Shown: positions 1,051 through 52,698 of the stretch, one piece after another
Position numbering within the stretch: position 1 is the stretch's first letter
Layout: the number at the start of each line of letters is the position of its first letter
DNA from: Holophagales bacterium
GTDB lineage: Bacteria; Acidobacteriota; Thermoanaerobaculia; Multivoradales; Multivoraceae
Assembly (NCBI GenBank): GCA_009837085.1
Contig: VXUF01000055.1
Coordinates: forward strand, 1-52,782
Length of the DNA stretch: 52,782 bases
Direction: 5' to 3'
Notes under the pieces: model-generated
What the model was told of the DNA's origin: nothing
Database searches by the model: none
The model's input: only the letters and a program-made list of their open reading frames with translations
Program-made: the position numbers and the translations under genes

Positions 1051-1080
1051 CACACTGGGTGCGCCGGCGTCCCCGCCGGC
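1051..1080 (+). repeat. dispersed hairpin repeat, copy 1 (module A only)
   Basis: CACACTGGGT followed by the GCCGGCG-tccc-CGCCGGC hairpin (7-bp stem, 4-nt loop). It lies in the 36 bp between two convergent genes and directly abuts the minus-strand TAA stop at 1081-1083. It is the shortest complete copy of the family found nine times in the window. It could double as a bidirectional terminator stem, but there is no U-tract. Confidence 0.85.
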
Positions 1081-2157
1081 TTACTCCAGGTGCTTCTTGA
1101 AGAACGCGCTGACCTCCTGGAACACGTCCTGCGACTCCGGCGACGCCGGGAAGATCAGATAGTCGGCGTGCGCGACACCCTCGTAGACGTGTAGGTCGGC
1201 GACCACGCCGGCCGCGCGCAACTTGCGGTGGGTCCGCGCCGTGTCGCTCAGGAACATGTCGCGCGTGCCGGTGATCAGGTACGTCGGCGGGAATCCATCG
1301 AAGTCGCCGTAGACGGGTGACATCAGCGGGTCCTTCAAGTCGTGGCCATCGGCGTACAGCCGCGCCGCCGCGCCCAGAAACCCGTCGTAGGTGACCAGGA
1401 TGCGGTCCAGCCCTTCGTTCGTGAACAGACTGTCGCTGGTCTTCGTCAGGTCGGCCCAGGGCGTTCCCGCGTAGATGGCTCCGGGCACATCGAGACCCAG
1501 GGCGATGAACCGGTGCACCGCGGCCAGGGACAGGCCGCCGCCCGCGGACGTACCGCCGATGGCGATCGACTTCGCGGACCGGCTCTCCAGCAGGTGCTTG
1601 TAGACCGAGACCACGTCCTCGACCGCGGCCGGGAACGGGTGCTCCGGCGGCATGCGGTAGTCGACGGATAGGGCCGGGATACCCGCGCTGGCCGCGACGA
1701 TGGCCGCCTCGGTGACGGAGGCGTCGCCGCCGTTCAGGACGTAGCCGCCGCCGTGGACGTGCAGGAACAGGTGGTCCTCGTGCCGGGGATGGACTTTTTC
1801 GGGCACCACCCGGTAGACCGTCACGCCTTCGACCTCGGCTTTCTCGATCGAGACGCCGAATCCGCTCGCGATCTGGTCGAGGTTGGCGTTGGCCGTCGCC
1901 TTCTGCATCACAAGCCACTGTTCGTTGCTCTGCGGCGTCTGCTGCTTCGACGCGGCGACGCTGGGAGCGGGCGTCGCGGCGAGGGCGGATCGGAGGACGT
2001 CGCTCGCACCGGCGGGCGCCGGCACGACCCGCTCGCCGATCGTCCAGGAGCCGGACTCCTGGGCTGTTGCGGCCGGCGTACCGGCAACGGTGAACACGAG
2101 GGCCAGGCTCGAAGCCAGTGCGACGGCCGGCAGGGCTTGGGGGATCGATCTCTTCAC
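1081..2157 (-). CDS. secreted alpha/beta hydrolase, HSL/GDXG esterase type
   Basis: The 358-residue product is probably a periplasmic or secreted short-chain carboxylesterase. The start GTG (2155-2157) follows an AAGGAGAG ribosome site and opens a Sec signal (MKRSIPQALPAVALASSLAL...ATAQ). The longer reading frame upstream only runs through a repeat element and is rejected. Family marks are the oxyanion motif HGGGYVLNGG near residue 135, the nucleophile elbow GGTSAGGGLSLA near 200, the acid in GTRDMFLSD near 297, and the His in GVAHADY near 329. These are typical of the hormone-sensitive-lipase-like family. It is divergent from the tannase-like gene, with a repeat copy between them. The substrate is unknown. 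Confidence 0.85.
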   Translation of the reverse strand: MKRSIPQALPAVALASSLALVFTVAGTPAATAQESGSWTIGERVVPAPAGASDVLRSALAATPAPSVAASKQQTPQSNEQWLVMQKATANANLDQIASGFGVSIEKAEVEGVTVYRVVPEKVHPRHEDHLFLHVHGGGYVLNGGDASVTEAAIVAASAGIPALSVDYRMPPEHPFPAAVEDVVSVYKHLLESRSAKSIAIGGTSAGGGLSLAAVHRFIALGLDVPGAIYAGTPWADLTKTSDSLFTNEGLDRILVTYDGFLGAAARLYADGHDLKDPLMSPVYGDFDGFPPTYLITGTRDMFLSDTARTHRKLRAAGVVADLHVYEGVAHADYLIFPASPESQDVFQEVSAFFKKHLE

Positions 2158-2220
2158 TGGGACTCTCCTTGAGTGCGACGGGAATGCAGTGTGTCGCGGA
2201 CGATACCCTCTGCGTCGATC

Positions 2221-2280
2221 CACACTGGGTGCGCCGGCGTCCCCGCCGGCTTCTGAGAAGGACGCGCCGCGAAGCGGCGG
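2221..2280 (+). repeat. dispersed hairpin repeat, copy 2 (modules A and C)
   Basis: Module A (CACACTGGGTGCGCCGGC plus its hairpin) is followed by a short linker and module C (CGCCGC-GAA-GCGGCG, 6-bp stem with GAA loop). The copy occupies most of the divergent gap between the esterase and the tannase-like gene. The promoters of both genes must therefore lie in, or next to, the repeat. Confidence 0.85.
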
Positions 2281-2312
2281 CCATACTGTGCCACCAGTTC
2301 TCCGACCGACCG

Positions 2313-3845
2313 GTGAAGTACTCCCTGACAACAGGCGCCTGTGTAGTAGCGCTCTCCGTCCCAGCCGCGGCGCAATGGCCGCCGCCGCCCCTCTACGACT
2401 CCGCCGAGCCCGCCCGCACCTGCGAGAGCCTCGCCGAGATCCAACTCGCCGACGCCACCGTCGACTCAGCCGTGCTCGAAACCGCCGGCCCCGGTCCCCC
2501 CTTCTGCCGCGTAACCGCCGTCGCCACTCACCCGCCAGCCAACGACCGCATCACGATCTGGGTGGCCCTACCTACCGAGACCTGGAACGGCCGTTTCCTC
2601 GGCACCGGCGGCGGCGGATTCTCCGGCGGCAGTCCGCGCACGCTCCCGGCCGCCGTCCGGGAAGGCTTCGCGGCGGCCGCCACCGACACCGGCCACGAAC
2701 AGAACAGCGGCAGCTTCGCGCTCGGCCCGGACGGCTTCCTCGAGTGGATGCTGATCCGCGACAACGCCTACCTCGGCATCCACGCGATGACCCGGGTCGG
2801 CAAGGAACTCGTCGCGGCCTTCTACGGCCGGCCGCCGAGGTACTCCTACTTCCGCGGCTGTTCGACCGGCGGTCGCCAGGGGCTGATGGAGGTCCAGCGA
2901 TACCCCGCTGACTACGACGGCGTGCTCTCCGGCGCGCCGGCCATCAACTGGGACCGGCTGCACCTCGCCCAGATGTGGGGTCAGCTCGTCATGCTGGAAG
3001 CCGGCCACTTCGTGCGCCCCTGCGCGTTCCGGCTCGTCCAGGCGAAGGCCATCGAAGCCTGTGACCTGCAGGACGGCCTGGCCGACGGCGTGATCCCGGA
3101 GCCCCGCCAGTGCCCGTTCGATCCAGGCGAACTCCTCGGCGCCGAGGCCGAAGGCTGCGGACCGATCACCGAGGCCGACATCGCCGTCATCCGGAAGATC
3201 CTCGAGGGCCCCAGGCGACGTGACGGCTCCTTCCTCTGGTACGGCCTTACGCCCGGGACCGACTTCCTGGCTCTAAACGGGACGACCGGCGATCCCCTCG
3301 GCGGAGCGCCGATGCGGATCACCCTCGACTGGTTCCGCTACTTCCTCGCCCGCGACCCGGACTTCGACTGGACCGAACTGAACCACGCTGCCTTCGAGCA
3401 CTACTGGGACCAGTCGGTCGAGGAGTTCGGGCGCGTGTTCGGCACCGACCGCACCGATCTGTCCGGTTTCCGCGACCGCGGCGGCAAGGCAATCGTCTGG
3501 CACGGCTGGTCGGATCCGTTGATCTACGCACAGGGCACGGTCGACTGGTTCGAAGGCGTCGAAGACCGCATGGGCGACACCGGCGACTTCCTGCGCCTGT
3601 TCATGGTGCCGGGCGCCAGGCACTGCCGCGACATGCCGGGCATCACCCCCGAGAATCCCTTTGCCGCGGTCGTCCGCTGGGTGGAGGAGGGCGTTCCACC
3701 CGACACGCTGGGTGCCGCGCGTCGGAACGGCGACGGCCAGCTTCTGGAATCGCGGCCCATCTGTCGCTATCCGAAAGCCGCGGTCTACTCCGGCAGCGGC
3801 GACCTGAAGGACGCGGCGAGCTTCGAGTGCAGGGAGTTACGCTGA
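2313..3845 (+). CDS. tannase/feruloyl esterase family protein, secreted
   Basis: The 510-residue enzyme is predicted to cleave ester-linked aromatic acids such as feruloyl or galloyl esters outside the cytoplasm. I place the start at GTG 2313, which opens a Sec signal (MKYSLTTGACVVALSVPAAAQ). The longer frame from 2118 passes through the repeat and lacks a signal. Family marks are the nucleophile motif GCSTGGRQG at about residue 183, the acid in WHGWSDPLI at about 400, and the His in ARHCRD at about 436; Cys pairs are scattered as in secreted tannases. It is followed 29 nt downstream by a CMD-family gene, suggesting a shared aromatic or lactone catabolic role. The exact ester substrate cannot be read from sequence. 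Confidence 0.88.
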   Translation: MKYSLTTGACVVALSVPAAAQWPPPPLYDSAEPARTCESLAEIQLADATVDSAVLETAGPGPPFCRVTAVATHPPANDRITIWVALPTETWNGRFLGTGGGGFSGGSPRTLPAAVREGFAAAATDTGHEQNSGSFALGPDGFLEWMLIRDNAYLGIHAMTRVGKELVAAFYGRPPRYSYFRGCSTGGRQGLMEVQRYPADYDGVLSGAPAINWDRLHLAQMWGQLVMLEAGHFVRPCAFRLVQAKAIEACDLQDGLADGVIPEPRQCPFDPGELLGAEAEGCGPITEADIAVIRKILEGPRRRDGSFLWYGLTPGTDFLALNGTTGDPLGGAPMRITLDWFRYFLARDPDFDWTELNHAAFEHYWDQSVEEFGRVFGTDRTDLSGFRDRGGKAIVWHGWSDPLIYAQGTVDWFEGVEDRMGDTGDFLRLFMVPGARHCRDMPGITPENPFAAVVRWVEEGVPPDTLGAARRNGDGQLLESRPICRYPKAAVYSGSGDLKDAASFECRELR

Positions 3846-3874
3846 CCGATCCCGACCGGCAAGAAAGGACCCCG

Positions 3875-4414
3875 ATGGCTCGACTCCCTTACCTCGACGT
3901 AGACGATCTCGCTCCCGAGGACCAGAGACTTCTCGATCCGCCGCTCAACATCTTCAGGGTCCTCGCTTACTGCCCTGAGGGCGCCCGTGCGTTCGGCCGT
4001 CTGGGCCTCTGGATTCGCTTCAAGACAAAGCTCGATCCGCGCCTGCGCCAGATGGCGATCCTCCGTGTCGGCGCCGTCACCCAGACCGACTACGAGTACA
4101 GCCACCACATCGAACTGGGCCGGCAGTTCGGCCTGTCCGACGGCGACATCCGGTCCGTCGTCGCGGGGCCGGAGGACGAATCGCTGACGGAAGTCGAACG
4201 GCTCGTCCTCACGGCGGCCGACGAGATGACGAACGGTGTCGGCATCGGCGCCGAGACCTTCAAGGCGTTGCAGGGTCACCTCGACGAGGGAATGATGGTC
4301 GAGTTGACGATGACCCTCTCGTACTACAACGGCGTCGTTCGGATACTGAACTCGTTGGACATCGATGTCGAGCCCGACTACCAGCGCTACCTGGAGGAGT
4401 TCCCGCTGCAGTAG
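3875..4414 (+). CDS. carboxymuconolactone decarboxylase (CMD)-family protein, copy 1
   Basis: The 179-residue cytoplasmic protein belongs to the CMD/AhpD-like helical family. The start ATG 3875 follows AAGAAAGGA; the longer frame from 3827 overlaps the tannase and is rejected. The core LRQMAILRVGAVTQTDYEYSHHIELG (residues about 65-90) has the family signature, but at the usual redox CxxC position it carries E-Y-S-H-H. It is therefore not an AhpD-type peroxidase, and is closer to decarboxylase or other CMD enzymes. A same-length paralog (5361-5900) lies beyond the SDR and shares most of its sequence, including an identical MARLPYLDVDDLAPED start. The reaction is unknown. Confidence 0.85.
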   Translation: MARLPYLDVDDLAPEDQRLLDPPLNIFRVLAYCPEGARAFGRLGLWIRFKTKLDPRLRQMAILRVGAVTQTDYEYSHHIELGRQFGLSDGDIRSVVAGPEDESLTEVERLVLTAADEMTNGVGIGAETFKALQGHLDEGMMVELTMTLSYYNGVVRILNSLDIDVEPDYQRYLEEFPLQ

Positions 4415-4420
4415 CGGCAG

Positions 4421-4477
4421 ACTGGGTCCGCCGGCGTCCTCGCCGGCTTCTGGGGAGGACGCGCCGCGAAGCGGCGA
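4421..4477 (+). repeat. dispersed hairpin repeat, copy 3 (modules A and C, diverged)
   Basis: ACTGGGTCCGCCGGC with the loop changed from tccc to tcct and the CGCCGGC stem kept, then module C (CGCCGC-GAA-GCGGCG). It starts a few bases after the TAG stop of the upstream CMD gene and ends about 20 bp before the SDR start. The base changes fall outside the paired stem. Confidence 0.82.
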
Positions 4478-4497
4478 CGATAGGAGGTACCGGATCG

Positions 4498-5313
4498 ATG
4501 AACAAACGTCTGGAGCAGAACCCCTCGGCCGGCGATCGAATCGACTTCAGCGGCCGGACCGCCGTCGTCACCGGAGGCGGAGCGAGAGGCGACGGGATCG
4601 GCAACGGCCGCGCCGCTGCGATCCTCCTCGCGCGCGCCGGTGCCGAGGTCATCGTCGGGGACCTCAACGAGGAGGCGGGTCGCGGCACCGTCTAATATCT
4701 CCACGGCGCGGGCGGCGCCGCCCGGCTCTTCGTCGGCGACGTGACGAGCGACGAGGACTGCGCAGCCCTGGCGGCCTTCGCGCGGGAAAGCTCCGCGCCG
4801 CCCACCGTGCTGATCAACAACGTCGGCATCGGTGCGCCCGGCACGGTCCTCGACACCGAGCCGGAGCTCTGGGACCGTGTGATGAAGGTCAACGTCCGGT
4901 CGATGGTCCAGGCTTCCCGCGCCCTGATCCCGTCGATGCAGGAGGCCGGCGGCGGCTCGATCGTCAACATCAGCTCGATCTCCGCGATCCGTCCCAAGGG
5001 CCTCACCCCCTACTCGGCGTCGAAGGGCGCGGTCATCTCGTTGACCCGGGCGATGGCCGTCGACCACGCCGGCGCCGGGATCCGGGTGAACGCCGTGTTA
5101 CCGGGACCGGTCTGGACCCCGATGGTCCAACGCCCGACGATGACGCCCGAGATCCGCGAACGGCGCAAGAACGCCTCGGCGCTGCGGATCGAGGGAACCG
5201 GCTGGGACGTCGGCCGCGCGGTCGTGTTCCTGGCTTCCGAACACGCGCGCTACATCACGGGTCAGGCGCTGGTCGTCGACGGCGGCGTGACGGTACTCTC
5301 TCCCGTCCGCTGA
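4498..5313 (+). pseudogene. SDR-family oxidoreductase interrupted by one in-frame TAA
   Basis: A short-chain dehydrogenase gene of 272 codons, preceded by a strong AGGAGG. Codon 66 (4693-4695) is TAA, with the same frame continuing to TGA at 5313. Before the stop is the Rossmann nucleotide loop TGGGARGDGIG and the acidic turn VIVGDLNEE. After it come NNVGIG, the catalytic Ser in VNISSIS, YSASKG (Tyr/Lys), and the C-terminal ITGQALVVDGG. Codon use and family motifs are intact on both sides, so a single substitution explains the break. It could be a young pseudogene, a strain polymorphism or a sequencing/assembly error. Stop-codon recoding is unlikely, since TAA ends the next gene. The intact enzyme would be an NAD(P)-dependent alcohol/ketone oxidoreductase. 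Confidence 0.82.
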
Positions 5314-5360
5314 CTGGCGCCGCCGGCGCTGACGATGCCGACCCGCAAGAGAGGATCGCG

Positions 5361-5900
5361 ATGGCTCGACTCCCCTACCTCGACGTGGACGATCTCGCAC
5401 CCGAAGACCGGGAGCTGCTCGACCGGCCGATCAACCTGGCGCGGATGCTCGCGCACAGTCCCGCGGGGACGCGTGCCTTCCGCCACACGGGCGCCTGGAT
5501 CCGCCACAAGTCACGCTTCGATACTCGGCTGCGCGAGATGGCCATCCTGCGCATCGGCGTCATCACGCGCACCGACTACGAGTACAGCCACCACATCGAA
5601 CTCGGCCGCCAGTTCGGCATGTCCGACGACGACATCCGCGCCGTCATCGCGGGGCCGGAAGCCGGGGAACTCCCGGAGCTCGAACGGCTCGTCCTCACCG
5701 CCGCCGACGAAGCGACCGAGGGCCTCAGCATCAGCACCGGGACCTTCGAGGCCCTAAGGCGGCACCTGGACGAGGAACTCCTCGTCGAACTAACGATCAT
5801 CGTCTCCTACTACAACGCCGTCGTGCGAATGCTCCGATCCCTGGGGATCGACGTCGAGCCCGGCTACGAGCGGTACCTGGAGGAGTTCCCGCTTCCGTAA
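5361..5900 (+). CDS. carboxymuconolactone decarboxylase (CMD)-family protein, copy 2
   Basis: A 179-residue paralog of 3875-4414, with the same length, the same MARLPYLDVDDLAPED opening and the same EFPLP/EFPLQ end. The start ATG 5361 follows GAGAGGATCGCG. The core REMAILRIGVITRTDYEYSHHIELG again lacks the AhpD CxxC. The pair appears to be a tandem duplication with the SDR gene between the copies. Both are probably cytoplasmic oligomeric enzymes acting on ring-derived intermediates; this is inferred from the family and from the esterase, tannase and dioxygenase neighbours. Confidence 0.85.
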   Translation: MARLPYLDVDDLAPEDRELLDRPINLARMLAHSPAGTRAFRHTGAWIRHKSRFDTRLREMAILRIGVITRTDYEYSHHIELGRQFGMSDDDIRAVIAGPEAGELPELERLVLTAADEATEGLSISTGTFEALRRHLDEELLVELTIIVSYYNAVVRMLRSLGIDVEPGYERYLEEFPLP

Positions 5901-5912
5901 CCGCTGCCCTTC

Positions 5913-5984
5913 CACACTGGGTGCGCCGGCGTCCCCGCCGGCTGCCGCCGAAGGCGGCCGGAAAGCCGCGCCGCGAAGCGGCGA
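5913..5984 (+). repeat. dispersed hairpin repeat, copy 4 (modules A, B and C)
   Basis: The fullest forward copy: CACACTGGGT, hairpin A (GCCGGCG-tccc-CGCCGGC), hairpin B (GCCGCC-GAA-GGCGGC), a GGAAAG linker, then hairpin C (CGCCGC-GAA-GCGGCG). It begins 12 nt after the TAA of the second CMD gene. It may act as a transcript end before the next operon, but has no poly-T run. Confidence 0.87.
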
Positions 5985-6009
5985 TGCTAAGTCCTCCCAT
6001 CTGAGAGGC

Positions 6010-6064
6010 TTGACAGCGAGTCAACCGCCCCGACATGCTTGATCACAGTTCCAAGGTAAGCATG
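6010..6064 (+). promoter_or_regulatory. candidate promoter/operator with two dyads before the ABC/TonB operon
   Basis: TTGAC (6010-6014) and GTCAA (6020-6024) form a perfect inverted repeat with a 5-nt spacer, and the first arm reads as a -35 hexamer TTGACA. CATGCTT (6034-6040) and AAGCATG (6058-6064) form a second perfect 7-bp inverted repeat that overlaps a weak -10 position (CATGCT, 18-nt spacing) and the GTG start at 6064. The arrangement suits a repressor or metal sensor site. This is pattern evidence only. Confidence 0.35.
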
Positions 6065-6369: not shown

Positions 6370-6547
6370 GCCGCCTCTCGATCCAGCGAGCCAGTCTCAC
6401 AACACGCTCGCGCGATTCGTCGCACGACTGCCGAGCGCCTGCCGTTCGTAGCGCTTTGCTGCGCGCCTGAGCCTCTTCGCTGGCACGCGGAGGTCGGGAG
6501 TGACCCGGTCTCCGAGCGAGGCCGCGAAGAAACTGAAGGGATTTTCC

Positions 6548-10106: not shown

Positions 10107-10135
10107 CGGACGAAAGAAAGGAAGTCTCGACAACC

Positions 10136-12355: not shown

Positions 12356-12368
12356 GAGTCGGCTTCCG

Positions 12369-14519: not shown

Positions 14520-14580
14520 GGGCGGTACGACCTTTTGGGGTTACGGTGGGTGGCTCACCTTACCTGCGGGAGACTCGACC

Positions 14581-17204: not shown

Positions 17205-18835
17205 CTTGGGGTGACAAACAAAGCGGATGCCGGCCTTGCGGCCGGCGGGGTTTCCTGGCCGCCTTCGGCGGCAGCCGGCGGGGACGCCGGCGCACCCAGT
17301 GTGTGGCGGCGCTCGTCGTCGTGGCCTGCGTTGGCTCGCCGCCCGCCGAAGAGCACGATCATTCCCACGAAAGCTGGTCGGTCACGGCTCTCGGGGAGCG
17401 GTTCGAGGTCTTCCCCGAGATCGACGCGCTGGCGGCAGGTCACACGGCGATGGCCCACACGCACGTCACGCGCCTGGCCGATTTCGCACCGCTGTTACGG
17501 GGAACGGTCGAGATCGTCCTTGTCGACGGGTCCGGCGAGCAGATCTTCCGCGCGGACCAACCCGCCGCTCCTGGGGTCTTCGACGTCGAGGTGACGCCCC
17601 AACGTGCCGGCGAGGCGGACCTGCTCTTCCGGATCGACGACGGGAACGGAGTCGAGGAGATCCCGGGAGGCGGGCTCCGCGTCGGCACGGCGGACCACGC
17701 GGAAGGCCTCTTGAAGGTACGGTCGCTCCCCGCTGGGTCCGACGGCGGCGAGCCCGTTTCCTTCCTGAAGGAACAGCAGTGGCAGGGCGGCTTCGCGGCC
17801 GCCTGGGTGCGGGAGGGCCGCCTGGCCCGGAGCGTCGCCGGCGTGGCGTCCTTCCGCCCACCGGCGGGCGGCGAGAGCACGATCACCGCGCAGGTGGACG
17901 GGGTCGTCCAGCCTCCCGCGGGGGCCCGCTCCTGGCCGTTCGTCGGCCGCCGCGTCGACCGGAACGATGCCCTGTTCCGGGTGGTTCCGCTGGTCGCCTC
18001 CGAGCGGAGTCTGGCGACCCTGGAAGGCGAACTCGAGGCGCTGGCGACGGAGTTGGAAAGCGCGCGGTCGCGCAGCTCGCGGCTCCGGGAGCTCCTGGTC
18101 CTCGAAGCGGTCAGCGAGCGGGAGGTCGAGGAAGCAGGCGTCCGCGCCCGCATGCTCGAGGCGCGGCACCGGGCCTCGGAACGGGACCTCGAATCGGCAC
18201 GTGCCTCGCGCGAAGGTGGAGCGGACAGCGCCGGCATCTCGCCACGGGCCCCGTTCTCCGGCCGGATCGCCGCCGTCACCACGACACCCGGGGCGACGGT
18301 CGCCGCCGGGGACGCCCTCGCCCGGCTGGTGCGGACCGACGGGGTGTGGATCGAGGTCGCCCTGCCCCCGCAGGATGCACGGCGGCTCATGGACGCGGGC
18401 CTGCGCGGTCTGGTGCTCGACGACCCGGAGAGCGGGCCGGTACGGGTCGAAGGCGGCCTCTCCCTCGTCTCGATCTCGCCGGAGATCTCGCCACGCACCG
18501 GCACCGTCACCGTTCTGCTCGAGGCCCCGGGCATCGCAGGCACCGGCTTCGCCCTTGGATCAACGGTGGCGGCGCAGGTCCTGATGGCCGGCGACGAGAG
18601 CGGCATCGTCGTGCCCGCCTCGGCCCTGGTCGACGACGGCGGCGTGCCAGTCGTCTTCTTGCAACTGTCCGGCGAGGACTTCCAGCGGCAGACGGTGACC
18701 GTGCTCGGCCGGCAGGGGGACCGCGTGCTGGTGGGCGGCCTGACCCCCGGCCAGCGCCTGGTGACCCGCGGCGGGGACGCCATCCGTCGTTCGTCCCTCA
18801 TGGCGAGCGGCGAAGCCCACGGCCACGTCCACTGA
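17201..18835 (+). CDS. efflux RND periplasmic adaptor (HlyD/CzcB-like) with repeat-derived N-terminus
   Basis: The 544-residue membrane-fusion protein links the RND pump to the outer-membrane channel. Start ATG 17201 has GGAAGGAGGG upstream and overlaps the OMF stop. Codons of about residues 10-34 are a copy of the dispersed hairpin repeat read in frame, joined to a hydrophobic VAALVVVACVG, a lipobox with Cys at about residue 44. The mature part begins EEHDHSHE, has an N-terminal beta domain, a barrel/lipoyl domain (SPRAPFSGRIAAVTTTPGATVAAGD), a coiled coil (about 265-340) and ends GEAHGHVH. His-rich termini suggest metal binding. A GTG at 17302 would skip the repeat but leave a signal without a basic n-region. 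Confidence 0.85.
   Translation: MTWGDKQSGCRPCGRRGFLAAFGGSRRGRRRTQCVAALVVVACVGSPPAEEHDHSHESWSVTALGERFEVFPEIDALAAGHTAMAHTHVTRLADFAPLLRGTVEIVLVDGSGEQIFRADQPAAPGVFDVEVTPQRAGEADLLFRIDDGNGVEEIPGGGLRVGTADHAEGLLKVRSLPAGSDGGEPVSFLKEQQWQGGFAAAWVREGRLARSVAGVASFRPPAGGESTITAQVDGVVQPPAGARSWPFVGRRVDRNDALFRVVPLVASERSLATLEGELEALATELESARSRSSRLRELLVLEAVSEREVEEAGVRARMLEARHRASERDLESARASREGGADSAGISPRAPFSGRIAAVTTTPGATVAAGDALARLVRTDGVWIEVALPPQDARRLMDAGLRGLVLDDPESGPVRVEGGLSLVSISPEISPRTGTVTVLLEAPGIAGTGFALGSTVAAQVLMAGDESGIVVPASALVDDGGVPVVFLQLSGEDFQRQTVTVLGRQGDRVLVGGLTPGQRLVTRGGDAIRRSSLMASGEAHGHVH
17228..17303 (-). repeat. dispersed hairpin repeat, copy 5 (inside coding sequence)
   Basis: Reverse orientation: GCCGGCC-TTGC-GGCCGGC hairpin, then GCCGCC-TTC-GGCGGC, then GCCGGCG-ggga-CGCCGGC and CACCCAGTGTG. 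All three modules are present. It lies just after the adaptor ATG with its ribosome site, and is read as Arg/Gly-rich residues (GRRGFLAAFGG, RRGRRRTQC). This is the only copy in the window inside a gene. Confidence 0.87.
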
Positions 18836-21933: not shown

Positions 21934-21979
21934 ACTGGGTGCGCCGGCGTCCCCGCCGGCATCCGGCGCGAAGCGCCGG
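21934..21979 (+). repeat. dispersed hairpin repeat, copy 6 (module A plus variant C)
   Basis: ACTGGGTGCGCCGGC with hairpin A, then CCGGCGC-GAA-GCGCCGG (7-bp stem, GAA loop). The second stem has a different sequence from other C modules but pairs perfectly, a compensatory pattern. It begins immediately after the RND stop codon. Confidence 0.85.
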
Positions 21980-22016
21980 TCTCCGGGTGGTGCTTCTCGC
22001 TAGGGTTGCCAGGATC

Positions 22017-23786
22017 ATGAAACAGCTTTCGTGCTTCGCCGCCGTCCTCGTCCTTCCCCTGCTCGCCGCCTGCAACGTCGATATCTCCGTCGACGGCGCC
22101 GCCGACGCGGACCTCATCGCCGCCGCCGGCGACGAGTACCTCGAGTTCGTCGCCGCCCGCGACCCGTACCTCAAGTTCCGGCGCGGCGAGAAGGTCGAGG
22201 ACTTCCCGGACTGGACGCTGGAGGCCGCCGAAGCGGACGCGGCCTTCGCCCGGAACCTGCTCGACCGGCTGGCCGGGGTCGACGAGGAGGCGGTCGACCA
22301 CGAGGACTGGATCTCGCTCCGGCTGCTGCGCTGGAACCTCAGCATGCTGGTCGAGGCGCCGACGCACTACTGGGCGGACTTCAACGTGACGCCCTACGCG
22401 GCCGGCGGCTTCAGCCTGAACATCCTCCACCAGGTGCTCGGCGCCGCTCCGGTCGGAACCGGGGAGGACCGCGCCCACTACCTCCATCTGCTCGACGAGT
22501 ACGCCCAGGGGATCGGGCAACTCGCCGACAAGGTCGCCGGGCAGAAGGAACGCGGCATCTACCTGCCGAAGGCCCAGGTCCCGGCCGTGGTCGGGATGTT
22601 CGAGGGCTACCGGGGTCGTCTCGAAGAGCTGTTCGTGCCTGCCGCCGACCGCGCCGGCGACGGGGCTGGCGACTTCCTGGACCAGGTCCGCGAGGCGGTC
22701 GAGACCGGAATCGACGCGCAGTTCGTCCGCCTGGTCGCCGAGCTCGGCGACGACTACCTGGAGGCGGCGCCGGAACAGGTCGGCCTCGGCACGGTGCCCG
22801 GCGGCCGCGATCTCTACGTCCACCGCGTGCGGATGCATACGACGACCGACCTCACGCCCGAGAAGATCCACGAACTCGGCCTGGAGCAGGTCGCGCAGAT
22901 CGAAGCGGAACTGGCGGCGCTGCGCGAGGAGATCGGCTTCGAGGCCACGTCCGAAGACACCGCGATGCAGGAGTTCCTGGACCAGGTCCGCGCCGACCCG
23001 CGCTTCATCGCGGCGTCGCCCGAGGAGGTCGAGGAGCGCTACATGGGCTACATCGAGAAGATCGAGCCCCACATCGCCGATTACTTCGACGTGCTGCCGG
23101 AGGCGCCCTACGGCGTCCGCCGCCTCGACCCGACGTCCGAGGCGACGATGACCTTCGGCGTCTACCAGCTTCCGACGTCCGTCAACCCGCGCGGCGAGTA
23201 CCGCTACAACGGCTCCGACCTCGAGAATCGCTCGCTGTTTTCGGCCCAGGGGCTGATCTACCACGAGCTGATCCCCGGCCATCACTTCCAGCTCGCGCTG
23301 GCGGCCGAACGCGAGGACCTGCCGCGGTTTCGCCGCGAGACGATCGGCTACGGCGCCTTCACCGAAGGCTGGGCCGAGTACGCCGCGAATCTTGGCAAGG
23401 AGATGGGCGTCTACGAGAACGCCTACGACCTGTACGGCCGCCTGGTCATGGAGATGTTCATCTCCTGCCGCCTGGTGCTCGACACCGGCATGAACCATTT
23501 CGGCTGGGACCTCGAGCGCGCCCGCGAGTACATGAGCGCCCGGGTCGTCTACTCCGACGTCGAGGTCGCCACGGAACTCCTGCGCTACTCCGCCGACATC
23601 CACGGCCAGGCGCTGGCCTACCGCATCGGCAACCTGGAGATCCTCCGCCTGCGCCGGAAGGCCGAGGAGGCACTCGGCGACCGCTTCGACATCAAGGCCT
23701 TCCACGCCGCCGTCATCGGCAGCGGCGCGATGCCGATGGTCGTGCTGGAGGAGCACATCGACTGGTGGATCGCGCAGCAGAGGTGA
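22017..23786 (+). CDS. DUF885-family lipoprotein, probable zinc metallopeptidase-like
   Basis: The 589-residue product starts at ATG 22017, giving MKQLSCFAAVLVLPLLAAC, a clear lipobox. The upstream frame crosses the repeat and is rejected. The family mark is YHELIPGHHFQ (His near residue 415) with FTEGWAEYAANLG about 35 residues later, an HExxH-like arrangement (HELIPGHH) with a downstream Glu typical of DUF885 proteins, thought to be metal-dependent peptidases. The rest is helical. The actual substrate is not established for the family. It is convergent with the ATPase gene, whose 3' end lies 9 bp away. Confidence 0.87.
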   Translation: MKQLSCFAAVLVLPLLAACNVDISVDGAADADLIAAAGDEYLEFVAARDPYLKFRRGEKVEDFPDWTLEAAEADAAFARNLLDRLAGVDEEAVDHEDWISLRLLRWNLSMLVEAPTHYWADFNVTPYAAGGFSLNILHQVLGAAPVGTGEDRAHYLHLLDEYAQGIGQLADKVAGQKERGIYLPKAQVPAVVGMFEGYRGRLEELFVPAADRAGDGAGDFLDQVREAVETGIDAQFVRLVAELGDDYLEAAPEQVGLGTVPGGRDLYVHRVRMHTTTDLTPEKIHELGLEQVAQIEAELAALREEIGFEATSEDTAMQEFLDQVRADPRFIAASPEEVEERYMGYIEKIEPHIADYFDVLPEAPYGVRRLDPTSEATMTFGVYQLPTSVNPRGEYRYNGSDLENRSLFSAQGLIYHELIPGHHFQLALAAEREDLPRFRRETIGYGAFTEGWAEYAANLGKEMGVYENAYDLYGRLVMEMFISCRLVLDTGMNHFGWDLERAREYMSARVVYSDVEVATELLRYSADIHGQALAYRIGNLEILRLRRKAEEALGDRFDIKAFHAAVIGSGAMPMVVLEEHIDWWIAQQR

Positions 23787-39337: not shown

Positions 39338-39373
39338 TTGCTACCTTGCCACATGTTGCCGGGGAGGAAGCTG

Positions 39374-40330: not shown

Positions 40331-40340
40331 GGAGCCGCGT

Positions 40341-41684: not shown

Positions 41685-41686
41685 CC

Positions 41687-43012
41687 ATGCGACCACCTCG
41701 ACTCCTCCTCCCGGCGATCCTGGGGACTCTCCCGGCGGTCGCGCCGCTCTCGCCTGCCGCAGGGGAGGAGCGCTCGGCGTTCTTCGGCGACCTGCACGTG
41801 CACACCGCATACTCGTTCGATGCCTTCTCGTTCGCCACGCGGACGACCCCCGACGACGCCTACCGTTTCGCCGCCGGCGAGGCGATCAGGCATCCGTCGG
41901 GAAACGAGATCCAGCTCGACCGGCCCCTCGACTTCTACGCCGTGACGGACCACGCGGCGTACCTGGGGGTCCTGCGCGCCCTCGCCGACCCCGGCCACCC
42001 GCTCGCGAACGACCCCGGGGTCAAGCGCTACGTCGACGCGACGACGGTCAAGGCGCGGGGAGGCTACCTGCCGGGCGCCTCGGAGTTCGTGGCCCGGCAC
42101 GATGATCCGGAACTGCTCCGGTCTGCGTGGCAGGAGATCGTCGCGGCGGCGGAACGCCACTACCGGCCGGGCACCCTGACGACCTTCATCGGCTACGAGT
42201 ACACCCCCTCGCGGGACGGCGGCAACCTGCACCGGAACGTGATCTTCAGGGGCGGCGCGCCGCAGGTACCGTTCAGCCGACTCGATTCTGCGAATCCCGA
42301 AGACCTCTGGAGCTGGATGGATCGCCTGCGTGACGAGGGCATCGAGGCGCTGGCGATCCCGCACAACTCGAACGGCTCCGACGGCTGGATGTTCCAGACC
42401 GAGACGTTCGCCGGGGGTCCGCTCGACGCCGACTACGCGACGAAGCGGATGCGCAACGAGCCGGTCGTCGAGATCACGCAGGTCAAGGGCACGTCCGAGA
42501 CCCATCCCTTTCTGTCGCCCAACGACGAGTGGGCCGACTTCGAGATCTTCCCTTTCCGCGTCGGCATGTGGGCCAAGAGCCGACCCAGGGGCAGCTACGT
42601 CCGCCAGGCGCTGCTGGACGGCATCGCGTTTCAGAGCGAGGAGGGCTTCAACCCGTATCGCTTGGGATTCGTCGGCGCCAGCGACACCCACAACTCGGGT
42701 TTTGTTTTCGACGAGGAGAAGCACACCGGCAAGGTCGGCGTGCACGACTTCGACCCGGTCAGCAGGGGCTCGGTTCCGGCCGATGTCGTCGACGGCGTAC
42801 CGACGTATCGCGAGGTCTTCCGCCGCTACTACAGCAACTCGGGCCTGACCGGGCTCTGGGCCGAGGAGAACACCCGCGTACTGGAGAACCCGACGTGCCG
42901 CTGGTCGACGTGGGATGCCGTGAAAGCCGGCGTCGCGCCGCGCGTCTCCCTGCCGGCGACGATCCAGGAGCGCGCCTGGTCGTCGCCGATCTGGATTGCT
43001 CCCGGCAGCTAG
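41687..43012 (+). CDS. DUF3604-family secreted protein, PHP-like metal site
   Basis: The 441-residue protein starts at ATG 41687, 2 nt after the propeller stop, and has a signal (RPPRLLLPAILGTLPAVAPLSPA). It contains FGDLHVHTAYSFDAF, DFYAVTDHAAY, LAIPHNSN and GASDTHNSGF, a run of His/Asp clusters matching the PHP-type phosphoesterase/metal-hydrolase signature seen in DUF3604. It probably hydrolyses a secreted or periplasmic substrate, unknown. Its TAG stop lies at the left end of the inverted repeat facing the convergent sulfatase. Confidence 0.85.
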   Translation: MRPPRLLLPAILGTLPAVAPLSPAAGEERSAFFGDLHVHTAYSFDAFSFATRTTPDDAYRFAAGEAIRHPSGNEIQLDRPLDFYAVTDHAAYLGVLRALADPGHPLANDPGVKRYVDATTVKARGGYLPGASEFVARHDDPELLRSAWQEIVAAAERHYRPGTLTTFIGYEYTPSRDGGNLHRNVIFRGGAPQVPFSRLDSANPEDLWSWMDRLRDEGIEALAIPHNSNGSDGWMFQTETFAGGPLDADYATKRMRNEPVVEITQVKGTSETHPFLSPNDEWADFEIFPFRVGMWAKSRPRGSYVRQALLDGIAFQSEEGFNPYRLGFVGASDTHNSGFVFDEEKHTGKVGVHDFDPVSRGSVPADVVDGVPTYREVFRRYYSNSGLTGLWAEENTRVLENPTCRWSTWDAVKAGVAPRVSLPATIQERAWSSPIWIAPGS

Positions 43013-43130
43013 CGTGGAACTGGCGGCCCGATATGGAGCCGGCCTTGCGGCCGGCGCGTCTCCCTGGCCGCCTTCGGCGGCAGCCGGCGGGGACGCCGGC
43101 GCACCCAGTGGGCCGCCAGTTACCCGCTAG
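43009..43130. repeat. long inverted repeat holding both stop codons of convergent genes
   Basis: The left arm 43009-43029 and right arm 43110-43130 are 21-nt inverted copies with 19 of 21 matches; the inner 12 bp (AACTGGCGGCCC and GGGCCGCCAGTT) are perfect. Each arm contains a stop codon: TAG 43010-43012 of DUF3604, and CTA 43127-43129 of the sulfatase. The 80 bp between are a hairpin-repeat copy. The whole can fold into a large cruciform and could act as a two-way terminator. Confidence 0.85.
43038..43110 (-). repeat. dispersed hairpin repeat, copy 7 (modules C, B and A, reversed)
   Basis: GCCGGCC-TTGC-GGCCGGC, then GCCGCC-TTC-GGCGGC, then GCCGGCG-ggga-CGCCGGC and GCACCCAGT. Orientation is the reverse of most other copies. 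It sits as the loop of the long inverted repeat between DUF3604 and the sulfatase, and is the only copy framed by such arms. Confidence 0.87.
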
Positions 43131-46056: not shown

Positions 46057-46100
46057 TGGCTCCTCCTCCTTCACACCGTAGCAGTTGTAGAGTCGCCCGG

Positions 46101-47030: not shown

Positions 47031-47034
47031 GCTC

Positions 47035-48519: not shown

Positions 48520-48556
48520 GGCCCGTTTCTCCATCTGCGTTAGGATTCCGACCATC

Positions 48557-49996
48557 ATGATCACACGACGACAGGCAGTCAAGAGCGTCGCTGCAGCGTC
48601 GGTGGGGTCCGCCGTGGGGGCCGCCTTCAGCTTCGCGAAGACGAACCGGGCGAATCTGCTTTTCCTGTGCTCCGATCAGCACCAGACGGCCGCGTCCGGC
48701 TGCTACGGCAGCAACGAGGCTCAGACGCCCCACATCGACGAGATCGCCGCCGACGGCGTCCGCTTCGACCGCGCCTACTGCAACGCGCCCGTCTGCGTCC
48801 CCTCCCGCGGGTCGATCATCACCGGCCTCCACCCCTGCAGACACGGGGCGAAGATCCTGCGGGACCCGTTGCCGAACGAGGCGCGCACGGTCGCCCACTA
48901 CTTCAAGGATCACGGCTACGTCACCGGCGCGATCGGCAAGATGCACTTCGTCGACGAGACCCGGCGGCACGGCTTCGACCACAGGCTCTATCGAGCCGAT
49001 CACGACAAGCGGCTCACCCAGGCGGAGCAGCAGGCGTTCCGGGACGATCAGTACGCGGCGTACCCCGCGGACGGCGGGTACGCGACGGGGCTGAGCGGTA
49101 ACGCCTCGACTCTGCCGGAGAGGTACTTCCAGGACACCTTCTACGCCGAGGAGTCGGTCGCCTTCCTGCGCGAGAACAAGGACCGCCCCTTCTGCCTCTG
49201 GTCGTCGTTCTACATGCCGCACACGCCGCTGGTGCCGGCGAAGCAGTACTGGGACATGTACGACGGAGTGACTCTCAGTCTGCCCGAGCGTTCCGATCGG
49301 GAGCTGCAGGACGGCTTCGAGGGGCACCTGATTCGCGCCAGGCAGCGCGGCTGGTACGACCAGAAGGACGACGACCTGCGCGACGCGATCCGCGGCTACT
49401 ACGGCAACACCTCCCAGATGGACGCCAACGTCGGACGGGTGTTCGACACGTTGCGCGAGCTGGGGCTCGACAAGAACACGGTGGTCGTCTACACCTCGGA
49501 CCACGGTGAGATGGCCGGCGCGCACCGCACGTGGACCAAGCACAACATGTACGAGCAGAGCGTCAGCGTGCCGCTGATCGTGCGCATGCCGGACCGGATG
49601 GAAGCCGGGACCGCCCGCACGCAGCTCATCGAGCACGCCGATCTGCTCCCGACCCTGACCGAGCTGTGCGGGTTGGGGAGTCCCTCCTCCGGGATCGACG
49701 GCCGGAGCTTCGCACCCCTGGTCCAGGGCGGGGCGTACACGCCGCGCGAGCACGCCTACTCGGAGTACTACTTCTGCCATCGCAGCTTCACGGTGGACGA
49801 CCGCTACGTCGGCAAGCCGCCCATCCTGATGGTGCGCACCGGCAAGTGGAAGCTCAACTACCTGAGCTGGGCGCGGTCGGAGCTTTACGACCTCGAGGCC
49901 GATCCGGGAGAGTTCAACAACGTGATCGACGACACCGGCAACTCCGGCATCGTCAGGGAGTTGACCGCCGTCGCCGAGCGCCTCTACGCTGGTTGA
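48557..49996 (+). CDS. sulfatase, Tat-like signal (choline-sulfatase-like pattern)
   Basis: The 479-residue protein starts at ATG 48557 (AGGA upstream). The N-terminus MITRRQAVKSVAAASVGSAV is a twin-arginine-like signal. Active Cys80 is in CVPSRGSIITG (classical CxPSR). The metal-site part is FLCSDQHQTAASGCYG, with Asp40 and Gln41, and YTSDHGEMAGAHRTWTK. The SDQHQ...GCYG pattern occurs in choline-sulfatase-like and related S1 enzymes. It lies 25 nt upstream of the FGE gene, the closest coupling in the cluster. Confidence 0.88.
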   Translation: MITRRQAVKSVAAASVGSAVGAAFSFAKTNRANLLFLCSDQHQTAASGCYGSNEAQTPHIDEIAADGVRFDRAYCNAPVCVPSRGSIITGLHPCRHGAKILRDPLPNEARTVAHYFKDHGYVTGAIGKMHFVDETRRHGFDHRLYRADHDKRLTQAEQQAFRDDQYAAYPADGGYATGLSGNASTLPERYFQDTFYAEESVAFLRENKDRPFCLWSSFYMPHTPLVPAKQYWDMYDGVTLSLPERSDRELQDGFEGHLIRARQRGWYDQKDDDLRDAIRGYYGNTSQMDANVGRVFDTLRELGLDKNTVVVYTSDHGEMAGAHRTWTKHNMYEQSVSVPLIVRMPDRMEAGTARTQLIEHADLLPTLTELCGLGSPSSGIDGRSFAPLVQGGAYTPREHAYSEYYFCHRSFTVDDRYVGKPPILMVRTGKWKLNYLSWARSELYDLEADPGEFNNVIDDTGNSGIVRELTAVAERLYAG

Positions 49997-50021
49997 GGGA
50001 GCTCCGAGTCGTGCGGGCGCC

Positions 50022-50981
50022 ATGACCTGCTGCGCTCCCTCGCGTGATGCCGATCGGCCGGCCCGCGGCGCGGAGCCGGCTCTGGTCGCGGAACCGAACG
50101 GTCGCGACATGGTCCGTCTCGACGGCGGCCGGTTCCTCATGGGCACCGACTCGGCCGATGCCATACCGGGCGACGGCGAGACCCCGGTCCGCGAGATCTT
50201 CGTCGACCCGTTCCGCATCGACGCCTGCGCCGTCTCCAACGCCGACTTCGCCGCCTTCGTGGACGCGACCGGCTACCGGACCGACAGCGAGCGGCTGGGC
50301 TGGTCCTTCGTCTTCGAGGGCCGCCTGTCGCGCAGGCTCCGGCGCACGGCGATCGAGGACCGTCTGCCGGAAGCCCGCTGGTGGTGCAAGGTCAGCGGCG
50401 CCGACTGGCGGCATCCCGAGGGGCCGGGATCGTCGATCGCCCGGCGCCAGGACCATCCCGTCGTCCAGGTTTCGCATCACGACGCCGTGGCCTACTGCGC
50501 GTGGGCGGGATGCCGGCTCCCGACCGAGGCGGAGTGGGAGTTCGCGGCTCGCGGAGGAGTTGAGCAGACGGCGCAGCCCTGGGGCGACGAGCTCGAGCCC
50601 GATGGCGAGCATCGCTGCAACGTCTGGCAGGGCAGCTTTCCGAAACGCGATCTCGGGCTCGACGGCTATCGCGGGACCTGCCCGGTCGACGCGTTCGAGG
50701 CCAACGGCTTCGGCCTCTACAACGTCTGCGGCAACGTCTGGGACTGGTGCGCCGACTGGTGGAGCCCCAGTCCTGCCGCGCCGGGCAGTCGCAATCCGCG
50801 CGGTCCCGCCAGCGGAACGGCACGCGTCACCCGCGGCGGGTCGTATCTCTGCCACGTCTCCTACTGCAGTCGCTACCGCCTGTCGGCCCGTACCCACAAC
50901 ACGCCCGACAGCGCGGCCGGGCACATGGGCTTTCGCTGCGCCGCCGACGTCGGCTCAGACCTTGACGCCGATCGTCAGTGA
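50022..50981 (+). CDS. formylglycine-generating enzyme (sulfatase activator)
   Basis: The 319-residue SUMF1/EgtB/PvdO-family protein has the FGE-sulfatase domain from about residue 30 (GGRFLMGTDSADA) with CRLPTEAEWEFAARGG, NVCGNVWDWCADWW and the end GGSYLCHVSYCSRYR. Cys277 and Cys282 have the same spacing as the two active-site Cys of human FGE (336 and 341), so it is a copper-type FGE able to convert the sulfatase Cys to formylglycine. It should act in the cytoplasm before export, as no signal is seen. Its 3' end overlaps the dioxygenase gene by 27 bp on the other strand. Confidence 0.93.
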   Translation: MTCCAPSRDADRPARGAEPALVAEPNGRDMVRLDGGRFLMGTDSADAIPGDGETPVREIFVDPFRIDACAVSNADFAAFVDATGYRTDSERLGWSFVFEGRLSRRLRRTAIEDRLPEARWWCKVSGADWRHPEGPGSSIARRQDHPVVQVSHHDAVAYCAWAGCRLPTEAEWEFAARGGVEQTAQPWGDELEPDGEHRCNVWQGSFPKRDLGLDGYRGTCPVDAFEANGFGLYNVCGNVWDWCADWWSPSPAAPGSRNPRGPASGTARVTRGGSYLCHVSYCSRYRLSARTHNTPDSAAGHMGFRCAADVGSDLDADRQ

Positions 50982-51740
50982 ACCGCGATAGCCGCCATCC
51001 GTCTCCGTCATCTTGAGCCAGCTTCCGTCGCCGCCCCTGGACTGGCTGATGACGAAGTCGTTCAGGTTGTTGTAGGGCGACGGCGGGCGCTGGTTGTAGG
51101 GCTTCCGCAGCGCGACCGCCCGGTTCAGCTTTTCCGGGAAGTAGAGCTGCACGGTGGCCGCGACCTTCCGCTCGAGGACGATTCGGGCGTGGATGTGCTG
51201 AACCCGGGGCGTGTACCAGCCGGGGTAGATCGTCTGGAACCGCACCATGCCGGCTTCGTCGGAGACCTGACGGCCGCGAAGGAAGGTCTCGTTGTCCGAG
51301 GGATTGGCGCGGCCGCTCGGCCAGACGTTGGGGTCATAGGCTGTTTAGTGGCTGTAGAAGCCCAGCGAGTCGCAGTGCCAGAGGTCGACGGCGGCGCCGG
51401 CGATCGGGGTGCAGCCGTCCACCTCGACGATGCGGAGGAGGACCTCCAGCGGCAGTCCCTCGCGGTCTTCGCGGATGTCGCTCCGCATCAGGACCGGGTC
51501 GTCGACGTAGAACGGCCCCTCCATGGCCCCCGCCGTCACGAGGCATTGGCCGGAGTCCTCGAAGCTGTGACTGACCGGGTCGAAGCCGGAGTTGTCCGTC
51601 TCGATGAACCGCCGTTTCAGGCCCGAGGTGAACCGTGACTCCTGCTGTTGCCGTCCTGGCTGCAGCGCGGTCAGCTTCCGGGCCGCGGCCCCGAGCAGGC
51701 CGAAGAGAAGAGTGCGTCGCTGCCACTCTGGAGTGTCCAT
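50955..51740 (-). pseudogene. intradiol ring-cleavage dioxygenase interrupted by one in-frame TAA
   Basis: A 262-codon gene with a Tat-like start (MDTPEWQRRTLLFGLLGAAA). Codon 132 (51345-51347) is TAA, and the same frame continues to TGA at 50955. Before the break: EGPFYVDDP (first Tyr ligand) and VDLWHCDSLGFYSH. After it: TAYDPNVWPSG, YPGWYTPR (second Tyr) and VQHIHARI (two His ligands). All four non-haem Fe(III) ligands are kept, so a single base change explains the stop. It could be a young pseudogene or a sequence error. The intact protein would cleave catechol-type rings between the hydroxyls, in the periplasm. Confidence 0.82.
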
Positions 51741-51816
51741 CGGGTCACCTCATGCGCCGGGTTGATGGGGTTGAACTGGCGAGTATCGTAGCCGGCGCAC
51801 TACGCTGGGCCTGCCG

Positions 51817-51898
51817 CACACTGGGTGCGCCGGCGTCCCCGCCGGCTGCCGCCGAAGGCGGCTGGAAAGACGCGCCGGCCGCAAGGCCGGCGTCCGCA
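51817..51898 (+). repeat. dispersed hairpin repeat, copy 8 (modules A, B and variant C)
   Basis: CACACTGGGTGCGCCGGC, hairpin A, hairpin B (GCCGCC-GAA-GGCGGC), linker GGAAAGACGC, then GCCGGCC-GCAA-GGCCGGC (7-bp stem, GCAA loop of GNRA type). It lies in the divergent gap between the dioxygenase and the phosphoesterase gene, ending about 24 bp before the latter's start. Confidence 0.86.
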
Positions 51899-51921
51899 TT
51901 CGACGCCTGCCCAACAACACA

Positions 51922-52671
51922 GTGAAGATCCTCGTCATCGCCGACATCCACGGAAACGCCGAGGCGCTCTCGGCGGTGCTGAAGAAGGAGCCCGACGTCG
52001 ACGCGACGATCTTCCTCGGTGACACGGTGCTCTCAGGCCCGCAGCCGAACGAGACGATGGCGCTGCTCGCGGGGGTTGACGGGGTGTTGATCGAGGGCAA
52101 CCACGACGTGGAGATGTTCGAGCCGGAGCGCTTCGAGGGCTGGCCGGCTCCATGGCGTGCCTACACGCGCTGGATCCTCGGCACCCTGGATGCGCCGGGC
52201 TGGAAGCTGCTCGGTGGTTTGCAGACGGAGGGCGAATACGAGGTCGGTGGCCTGCGCGTCTTCCTTCATCACGCCGAGCAGCCGGAGGAGCCGCGGCAGG
52301 CGCTGCCCGACACGCCCGACGAGCGGTTGGCCGCCCTGGCCGGGGGCACGGACTGCCCGATGGTGCTCTTCGGCCACTCTCACATCCAGTTCCGGCGGGC
52401 GATCGACGGCCAGGAGTTCATCAACCCCGGCAGCGTCGGTCAGCCGCGCTGCGGCCGGCGGGTGGCCTGCTACGGCCTGATCGAGGACGGTGTGTTCCGG
52501 CATCGCCAGGCGGAGTACGACCCGGGTCCGTGGCTCGAGGCGCTCGATGGTGTCGGGCCGCTCGACGGGTTCCCGGAGTTCCGGGAGTGGCTGAAGAAGG
52601 CGTTGCTCAGTGGGTACGGCATCGGCGAACGGGAGCCATGGACGCGGTTTGCACGAGAGGGGTACGTCTAA
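51922..52671 (+). CDS. metallophosphoesterase, YfcE/MJ0936-like
   Basis: The 249-residue cytoplasmic phosphodiesterase starts at GTG 51922. Motifs in order: VIADIHGN (DxH), FLGDTVLSG (GD), IEGNHD (GNHD), VFLHHAEQ, and LFGHSHIQF (GHxH), the two-metal calcineurin-like set. The later INPGSVGQPR is the pattern of the small YfcE-type branch. These enzymes cleave phosphodiesters, but the natural substrate is unknown. No ribosome site is evident before the GTG. Confidence 0.9.
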   Translation: MKILVIADIHGNAEALSAVLKKEPDVDATIFLGDTVLSGPQPNETMALLAGVDGVLIEGNHDVEMFEPERFEGWPAPWRAYTRWILGTLDAPGWKLLGGLQTEGEYEVGGLRVFLHHAEQPEEPRQALPDTPDERLAALAGGTDCPMVLFGHSHIQFRRAIDGQEFINPGSVGQPRCGRRVACYGLIEDGVFRHRQAEYDPGPWLEALDGVGPLDGFPEFREWLKKALLSGYGIGEREPWTRFAREGYV

Positions 52672-52679
52672 CGGAACAG

Positions 52680-52698
52680 ACTGGGTGCGCCCGGCGGG
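52680..52698 (+). repeat. dispersed hairpin repeat, copy 9 (truncated)
   Basis: ACTGGGTGCGCCCGGCGGG keeps the conserved left end but the hairpin A arm is shortened and shifted. It directly abuts the minus-strand TAA stop at 52699-52701, as copy 1 does at 1081. It may be a decayed or partly deleted copy. Confidence 0.7.

Follow-up and report, generated by a model that had tools for sequence, protein, structure and literature searches.

The 52,782-nt stretch of a Holophagales bacterium genome analysed here (contig VXUF01000055.1; hereafter, the window) carries dispersed copies of a short palindromic repeat for which a preliminary description had listed nine positions. A copy starts with a conserved left end, the head, followed by a hairpin (A) and, in many copies, by a second hairpin (B) and/or one of several third hairpins (C). 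Direct reading of the window located the head and a hairpin A with a perfect 7-bp stem (GCCGGCG-TCCY-CGCCGGC) at eight of the nine positions. Since position 52680 carries the head ACTGGGTGCGCC without hairpin A 3' of it, the total is eight copies and one remnant. Most heads in the window read ACTGGGTGC, copy 4421 has the single head change ACTGGGTCC, and two copies, 17228 and 43038, are on the minus strand. The features are as follows.

1051–1080, plus strand: copy with head CACACTGGGTGC and hairpin A (1063–1080), no B or C (direct reading).
2221–2279, plus strand: A-C2 copy; head, A (2233–2250), C2 CGCCGC-GAA-GCGGCG (2265–2279) (direct reading, folding).
4421–4476, plus strand: A-C2 copy with head variant ACTGGGTCC; A (4430–4447), C2 (4462–4476) (direct reading).
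5913–5983, plus strand: A-B-C2 copy; A (5925–5942), B GCCGCC-GAA-GGCGGC (5944–5958), C2 (5969–5983).
17228–17303, minus strand: A-B-C1 copy; head (17292–17303), A (17274–17291), B (17258–17272), C1 (17229–17246).
21934–22021, plus strand: A-III copy; head, A (21943–21960), C-III CCGGCGC-GAA-GCGCCGG (21963–21979), tail with approximate end.
43016–43124, minus strand: A-B-C1 copy (43038); A (43083–43100), B (43067–43081), C1 (43038–43055).
51817–51892, plus strand: A-B-C1 copy; A (51829–51846), B (51848–51862), C1 (51873–51892).
52680–52691, plus strand: head ACTGGGTGCGCC without hairpin A; remnant or chance.

All copies in the window are intergenic, and seven of the nine positions lie no more than 30 bases from a gene end, as had been said of most of them. 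Positions 4421, 5913, 17228, 21934, 43038 and 52680 begin 2–26 bases past the end of a plus-strand open reading frame, which has a Pfam match in all cases except 4421. Copy 1051 touches the stop of an abhydrolase gene on the minus strand (1081–2214), the stop of an AcrB-type transporter gene is located two bases 5' of copy 21934, and copy 43038 has a convergent gene on each side and is enclosed by an imperfect inverted repeat of about 15 bases. Copies 2221 and 51817 are upstream of genes. A scan of the window revealed no Rfam family reaching gathering scores, and a tRNA scan found none.

The location near gene ends and the strong DNA folding of the hairpins (z −1.6 to −3.5 for six copies) are compatible with hairpins that act as transcription terminators or mRNA-stabilizing stems and owe their likeness to this function rather than to mobility. 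We consider this explanation highly improbable. Not one of 74 copies with a C module has TTTT within 12 bases after that module, which led us to reject an intrinsic terminator. Furthermore, sister genomes lack a copy at the same gene ends, one site holds the element in both orientations, and the same hairpin adjoins transposase genes. A secondary role of the copies in mRNA stability is possible.

Copies are present far beyond the window. In the source genome (G000) there are 306 places within two mismatches of the left end ACTGGGTGCGCCGGCGTCC, compared with one for the reversed pattern. The left end was likewise found in all 20 sister genomes, which together with G000 make up the 21 genomes of the genus studied here (15–251 matches each; reversed controls, 0–2 each); at two mismatches, the pattern also admits class T2 (see below). 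It had no match in the three genomes of other genera of the same family. Eight of 36 genomes of the same order had 1–14 matches, near control level except for G027, which belongs to another family and has 14 matches at two mismatches against none in the control. The 12-base head alone, with up to three mismatches, occurs at chance level (88 matches; 95.4 in shuffles). By contrast, when places in 443 kb of G000 were selected by the head CTGGGTGC only, a perfect 7-bp stem with a 4-base loop followed 60 of 89 matches, and none in 20 shuffles of each. Thus, significance lies in the combination of head and hairpin.

Hairpin B and the several C forms proposed earlier were both borne out. B reads GCCGCC-GNA-GGCGGC, and the C forms are C1 (GCCGGCC...GGCCGGC), C2 (CGCCGC-GNA-GCGGCG), III (CCGGCGC-GAA-GCGCCGG) and, outside the window in G000, C3 (GCGAGGC...GCCTCGC). 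The same 443 kb contain 65 A hairpins (up to one mismatch), five of which differ in their stems and could be decayed copies or chance matches. They comprise 18 A-C2, 15 A-B-C1 and 7 A-III copies, 8 with C3 (4 of them also with B), 3 A-B-C2, 2 A-C1, and 12 without a recognised C, at least one of which (L223:17610) is really A-B-C1 with one mismatch. Outer inverted repeats like that of copy 43038 were rejected as a general part of the element: over 63 copies the mean left-right flank score was 7.33 versus 6.91 for shuffled partners, and hence only a few copies carry them.

The loops had been described as GAA or GCAA. Both occur, but the loops of B and C more generally follow GNA or GNNA, and that of A is made of pyrimidines in a class-specific form (TCCC, TCCT or TTCT). 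Among 92 copies from G000 and seven relatives, G..A loops are found in 33 of 34 B, 19 of 21 C2, 5 of 8 III, 10 of 11 C1 tetraloop and 13 of 14 C3 hairpins (9/10 and 4/4). Hairpins with a 6-bp stem and a 3-base loop have GNA in 43 of 64 cases up to 110 bases 3' of an A head and in 29 of 495 cases elsewhere in the same DNA; the closing pair is C-G in 43/43 of the former and 18/29 of the latter GNA triloops. Because the copies share ancestry, these counts are not independent. According to the available text of PMC4686876, GNA or GNNA loops on G-C pairs form DNA mini-hairpins of extraordinary stability; GCGAAGC, for example, melts at 78 °C. B, C2, C3 and, for the most part, C1 follow the same loop rule; what is oligonucleotide chemistry there is a repeated genomic feature here. 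Judging by titles, none of the papers listed in literature searches on GNA/GNNA loops concerns bacterial repeats, and none of those listed for five hairpin strings concerns REPs (repetitive extragenic palindromes). The rule is a strand-specific sign of possible selection on the DNA in its folded, single-stranded form. Accessory hairpins that aid folding would explain why their stems differ while their loops keep to the rule.

A transposase-like protein encoded elsewhere had been suspected to mobilise the repeat. The single Y1 transposase domain of G000 is encoded on contig C152, and the gene (G000:C152:2708-2926) lies beside the same repeat. The protein scores 81.5 bits with NCBIfam NF047646 (REP_Tyr_transpos; cut-off, 80), and three others of the genus score 82.3, 79.6 and 79.1 bits, the last two just below the cut-off; six of six proteins exceed the cut-off of Pfam Y1_Tnp (PF01797). 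Such REP-associated tyrosine transposases (RAYTs), of approximately 200–220 residues, were found in 12 of the 21 genomes, with one or two per genome. NHVH and the NP of the Y motif are invariant in 10 of 10 aligned rows. The closest solved structure is E. coli TnpAREP (4er8; E 2.9e-5), whose W-Q pair (W94, Q95) aligns with W-M. All 19 genus-type rows in the correct frame have this W-M, and 16 outgroup rows have 11 W-M, 2 W-A and one each of W-F, W-Q and W-H. In E. coli TnpAREP, Q95 contacts the guide, as stated in the accessible part of PMC6006769.

At all 20 RAYT loci examined, A copies are located within 300 bases. Both orientations of A occur beside the genes. The copies are on one side of the gene only at six loci (L053, L055, L066, L108, L110, L112), and a contig end truncates four of these. 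Adjoining class T2a RAYTs are tandem A units 39 bases apart (L109:3553-3631, L052:1179-1257). The seven nearest RAYT relatives (66–91% identity) come from metagenome-assembled genomes titled Acidobacteria, Acidobacteriota, Thermoanaerobaculia or Holophagales, and that of WTGQ01000003.1 (Acidobacteria bacterium isolate CO36388bin_9) is identical on the tree to the one of G010. Some of these genomes presumably belong to sponge symbionts, to go by isolate names.

Directly 5' of the A stem, the head is ACTGGGTGC, CTCTGGGTGC or TGTCGGTGC, depending on the class. Five head/stem classes were read from the RAYT flanks.

T1: head ACTGGGTGC, stem GCCGGCG.
T2a: head ACTGGGTGC, stem GCCGGCC.
T2b: head TGTCGGTGC (once GCCGGTGC), stem GCCGGCC.
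T3: head CTGGGTGC, stem GCGGGTC.
T4: head CTGGGTGC, stem GCGGACC.

Between classes, four of the seven stem pairs are altered on both sides with pairing kept. The view that stems differ and always pair stands for these changes, with the exception of two of 100 listed places in G010 (G010:C1:54514 and G010:C1:3363171), which hold hybrid A hairpins joined within the loop and unpaired because their halves come from different classes. Classes were counted in all 21 genomes, with all reversed controls at 0 and with a T2 pattern that cannot separate T2a from T2b. Examples (T1/T2/T3/T4) are 252/10/3/0 in G000, 32/39/1/80 in G014, 35/138/2/45 in G007 and 49/60/176/0 in G003. Of the 12 genomes with a RAYT, eight (G000, G001, G003, G007, G010, G011, G014, G017) have the class of that enzyme as their most frequent one or as one of two with similar counts.

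In G014, 53 of 70 listed T4 copies (of 80) lie in clusters of less than 300 bp, and the 70 include 16 divergent pairs at 132–136 bp and 4 convergent pairs at 111–112 bp. The upstream flank of the G013 RAYT has the order A, C2-like hairpin, spacer, C1-type hairpin, B, inverted A. It is such a paired unit, a REPIN (REP doublet forming a hairpin), and its two arms are the modules known from solitary copies. Arms have also been recombined, given that B is combined with C2 or C3 in further solitary copies. A complete REPIN consists of an inverted A pair with inner hairpins. Numerous dispersed copies correspond to one arm, made up of A, optionally B, and a single C; seven of the eight hairpin-bearing copies in the window have a single, solitary A.

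Taking these data together, the repeat is very probably a REP/REPIN family in the broad sense, that is, palindromes that fold as single strands and are recognised and spread by a RAYT, an HuH Y1 nuclease. The preliminary description had called it REP/BIME-like (BIME, bacterial interspersed mosaic element), which is supported by the genome-wide copies and the RAYT beside the same hairpin. Neither of the findings named there as refuting it was obtained, since copies occur throughout the genome and stems that differ between classes do so on both sides and still pair. Hairpin A with its class head would be the recognition unit, and the accessory hairpins would serve as folding aids on the same strand. 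The RAYT would cut the folded REP strand as single-stranded DNA and join its ends to other REPs or small palindromes; such cutting and joining may yield the mosaic and bring the class suited to the present enzyme into old sites.

The match between classes and enzymes is reflected in a tree of 13 genus RAYTs, on which the five classes need four changes, the minimum, as against none of 200 shuffles that was as low; this agreement rests partly on near-identical proteins, with a T1 clade support of 92/90 and T2a as a single row. Several observations speak against a REP/RAYT family. The foot of A lacks GT[AG]G and has ACTGGGTGC, CTCTGGGTGC or TGTCGGTGC instead. In four of 12 genomes (G002, G008, G009, G013) the class beside the RAYT is outnumbered by another. 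No RAYT was detected at E≤0.001 in 9 of the 21 genomes, and RAYT-less G006, G018, G016 and G004 hold 147–188 copies of one class; RAYT loss or assembly gaps must therefore be assumed. Triloop C1 hairpins depart from the loop rule (G..A in 0/5). Finally, no replication-orientation bias was found among 100 listed exact copies on G010:C1, which leave 62 others unplaced (41 of 75 solitary copies leading-oriented; p 0.49). Of these 100 copies, 21 are in the last 176 kb and 10 in the first 100 kb, and the GC skew at the ends of G010:C1 switches sign as at an origin.

Copy positions were compared in syntenic blocks, which are approximately 81–97% identical among the genomes of the genus, and empty sites were found for copies 21934, 17228 and 43038. 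Site 21934 is empty in 10 of 21 genomes, where the transporter stop overlaps the next start. It is occupied in six, by T1 (G000, G009), T2 (G007, G008) or T3 (G003, G011), not scorable in G006, G013, G015 and G019, and without a match in G020. In G006, about 9.4 kb separate flanks that are adjacent in other genomes (G006:C41:40178-49580). Site 17228 is empty in G017 and G018 and holds T1 in G000, G006, G002 and G011, T2 in G008, G012, G007, G010, G004 and G003, T3 in G005, and T4 in G014 and G001. An interrupted A is present in G013 and fragments in G015 and G019; G016, G009 and G020 were unscored. Site 43038 is empty in G003, which has only CTAGCGCGCTAG, formed by two convergent stop codons, and in G002 and G004, with 1–5 bases there. 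Type I occurs in G000, G001 and G006 and inverted in G016, type III in G010, G008 and G007 and inverted in G009; G012 has 55 unrelated bases, and nine genomes were unscored.

Class differences at orthologous sites could stem from independent insertions into one favoured target, for example a small-palindrome dyad, instead of exchange within a copy. This is a serious though not the likelier possibility. At site 43038, types I and III, each in both orientations, are centred at the dyad of the palindromic empty site CTAGCGCGCTAG. Likewise, element X (CCGACCGCCCGAAGACGGGCGCTCGG...), a distinct element with two hairpins and a length of about 72 bases, resides inside the hairpin A loop in all four distinct copies found in the DNA examined (G014, G008, G007, G001; L193:5623, L202:4035, L233:1827, L271:1367). 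Less easily accommodated is the similar 3' tail at site 21934 across classes (type III in G000 and G007; T3-B-C2 in G003 and G011), though this tail resembles the target as well. The same applies to site 17228, where B, C1 and the right flank are common to G000, G005 and G014 while A differs.

Alternatively, the modules of a REP family might have been mixed by homologous recombination or gene conversion, with the RAYT having no role after insertion. The two hybrid A hairpins of G010, with halves of two classes, point in this direction, as does the 43038 element common to G010 and G008, which differs mainly at the A apex (CTTCTG versus GTCCCC). However, the shared tracts are short for RecA, and at site 17228 an older A persists upstream of the newer unit, resembling insertion: in G014, GCCGGCG with head ACTGGGTCC precedes GCGGACC, and in G001 the older A is of the GCCGGCC type and split by element X. 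We regard this alternative as less likely than not. Based on the three sites, insertion at a preferred spot and class change within an occupied spot both seem to be needed.

It is tempting to speculate, if with little confidence, that the repeat belongs to a multi-phylum REP superfamily outside GTAG/CGTC (heads TGGGTGC/TGGGANC, mostly W-M RAYTs) whose copies are rewritten in place. REPs fixed at old sites would acquire a new hairpin when RAYT specificity changes, and GNA/GNNA mini-hairpins would enable the strand to fold and make it amenable to exchange at loops and dyads. Beyond the genus, 44 of 80 kept RAYT loci were checked for strings common to both flanks, and 17 of the 44 had none of at least 11 bases. 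Hairpin heads beside RAYTs were TGGGTGC in L116 (Armatimonadota), CGGGTGC in L148 (Planctomycetota), CTGGGAGC in L125 and L138 (Verrucomicrobiota) and L158 (Acidobacteriota), CTGGGAGT in L129 (Pseudomonadota), CTGGGAAC in L123 and L124 (Verrucomicrobiota) and CTTGGAAC in L137 and L140 (Acidobacteriota); L121, L172 and L134 have unlike heads. The seemingly related heads in other phyla are a lead.

Two further observations concern genes of the window. The abhydrolase gene (1081–2214), located between two REP copies, was matched twice consecutively in G005 and G018, which amounts to a tandem duplication. The 3' end of a DUF3604 gene (42874–43013) has matches of about 115–140 bp with approximately 80–86% identity at many other places in genomes of the genus, probably because it encodes a C-terminal stretch common to members of a gene family with several copies.

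How REPs spread and how RAYT and REPs jointly change specificity is unsolved, according to the available parts of PMC3686654 and PMC8266576. The genus offers material for studying this joint change: with 21 genomes, five matched classes, empty sites and class-differing sites, a RAYT/REP specificity switch is testable both phylogenetically and biochemically.

The closest parallels are the REPs and REPINs of Pseudomonas and Stenotrophomonas (group 3, subclass 2.5 RAYTs), which share the mostly perfect palindrome and conserved 5' head and, as far as the available descriptions go, the high copy number, inverted pairs and a cognate RAYT flanked by the palindrome. There, RAYT orthogroups are associated with different REP classes and old REPs are partly replaced (PMC3686654, in the portion available). 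Classes that follow RAYT variants with partial replacement are found in both systems, and the present case may be comparable to an orthoswitch, by the excerpts of PMC3686654 and PMC8266576. The family described here is a variant with a non-GT[AG]G head, W-M instead of W-Q in its RAYT, accessory B/C mini-hairpins and a host of another phylum.

Composites of inversely oriented REPs with linkers are common to the present family and the BIMEs of E. coli, where TnpAREP (group 2, subclass 2.2) cleaves and recombines single-stranded REPs in vitro (PMC8266576, available text). Unlike in E. coli, there is neither a bulged stem nor GTAG here, and the protein is distant (see the E value above). BIMEs are mosaics by name. 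Modular exchange with preserved pairing, which had been deemed uncommon among REP families, is thus less unusual than claimed, because BIMEs are mosaics and REP classes follow RAYTs in Pseudomonas and Stenotrophomonas, as the accessible part of PMC3686654 indicates. The RAYT subclasses 2.2, 2.4, 2.5 and 2.7, with their GTAG contacts, have a conserved W-Q pair in place of W-M (subclasses and GT[AG]G rule as given in the consulted portion of PMC6006769), and the CGTC REP superfamily, with terminal CGTC and no transposase link, differs from our repeat in the head and in the RAYT link. Among the papers listed in our searches, only PMC3733652 and PMC6006769 bear on RAYTs and REPs in Acidobacteria; in the parts available, both deal with acidobacterial Y1 proteins (TIRtrons/TIRYTs and class 3 Y1) with flanking non-GTAG repeats, some of which recur in the genome. 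These features are shared with the family studied here, whereas class 3 Y1 proteins are described there with a Y----Q motif and a CnGA foot, in place of which we find Y---NP and GGTGC directly before the stem.

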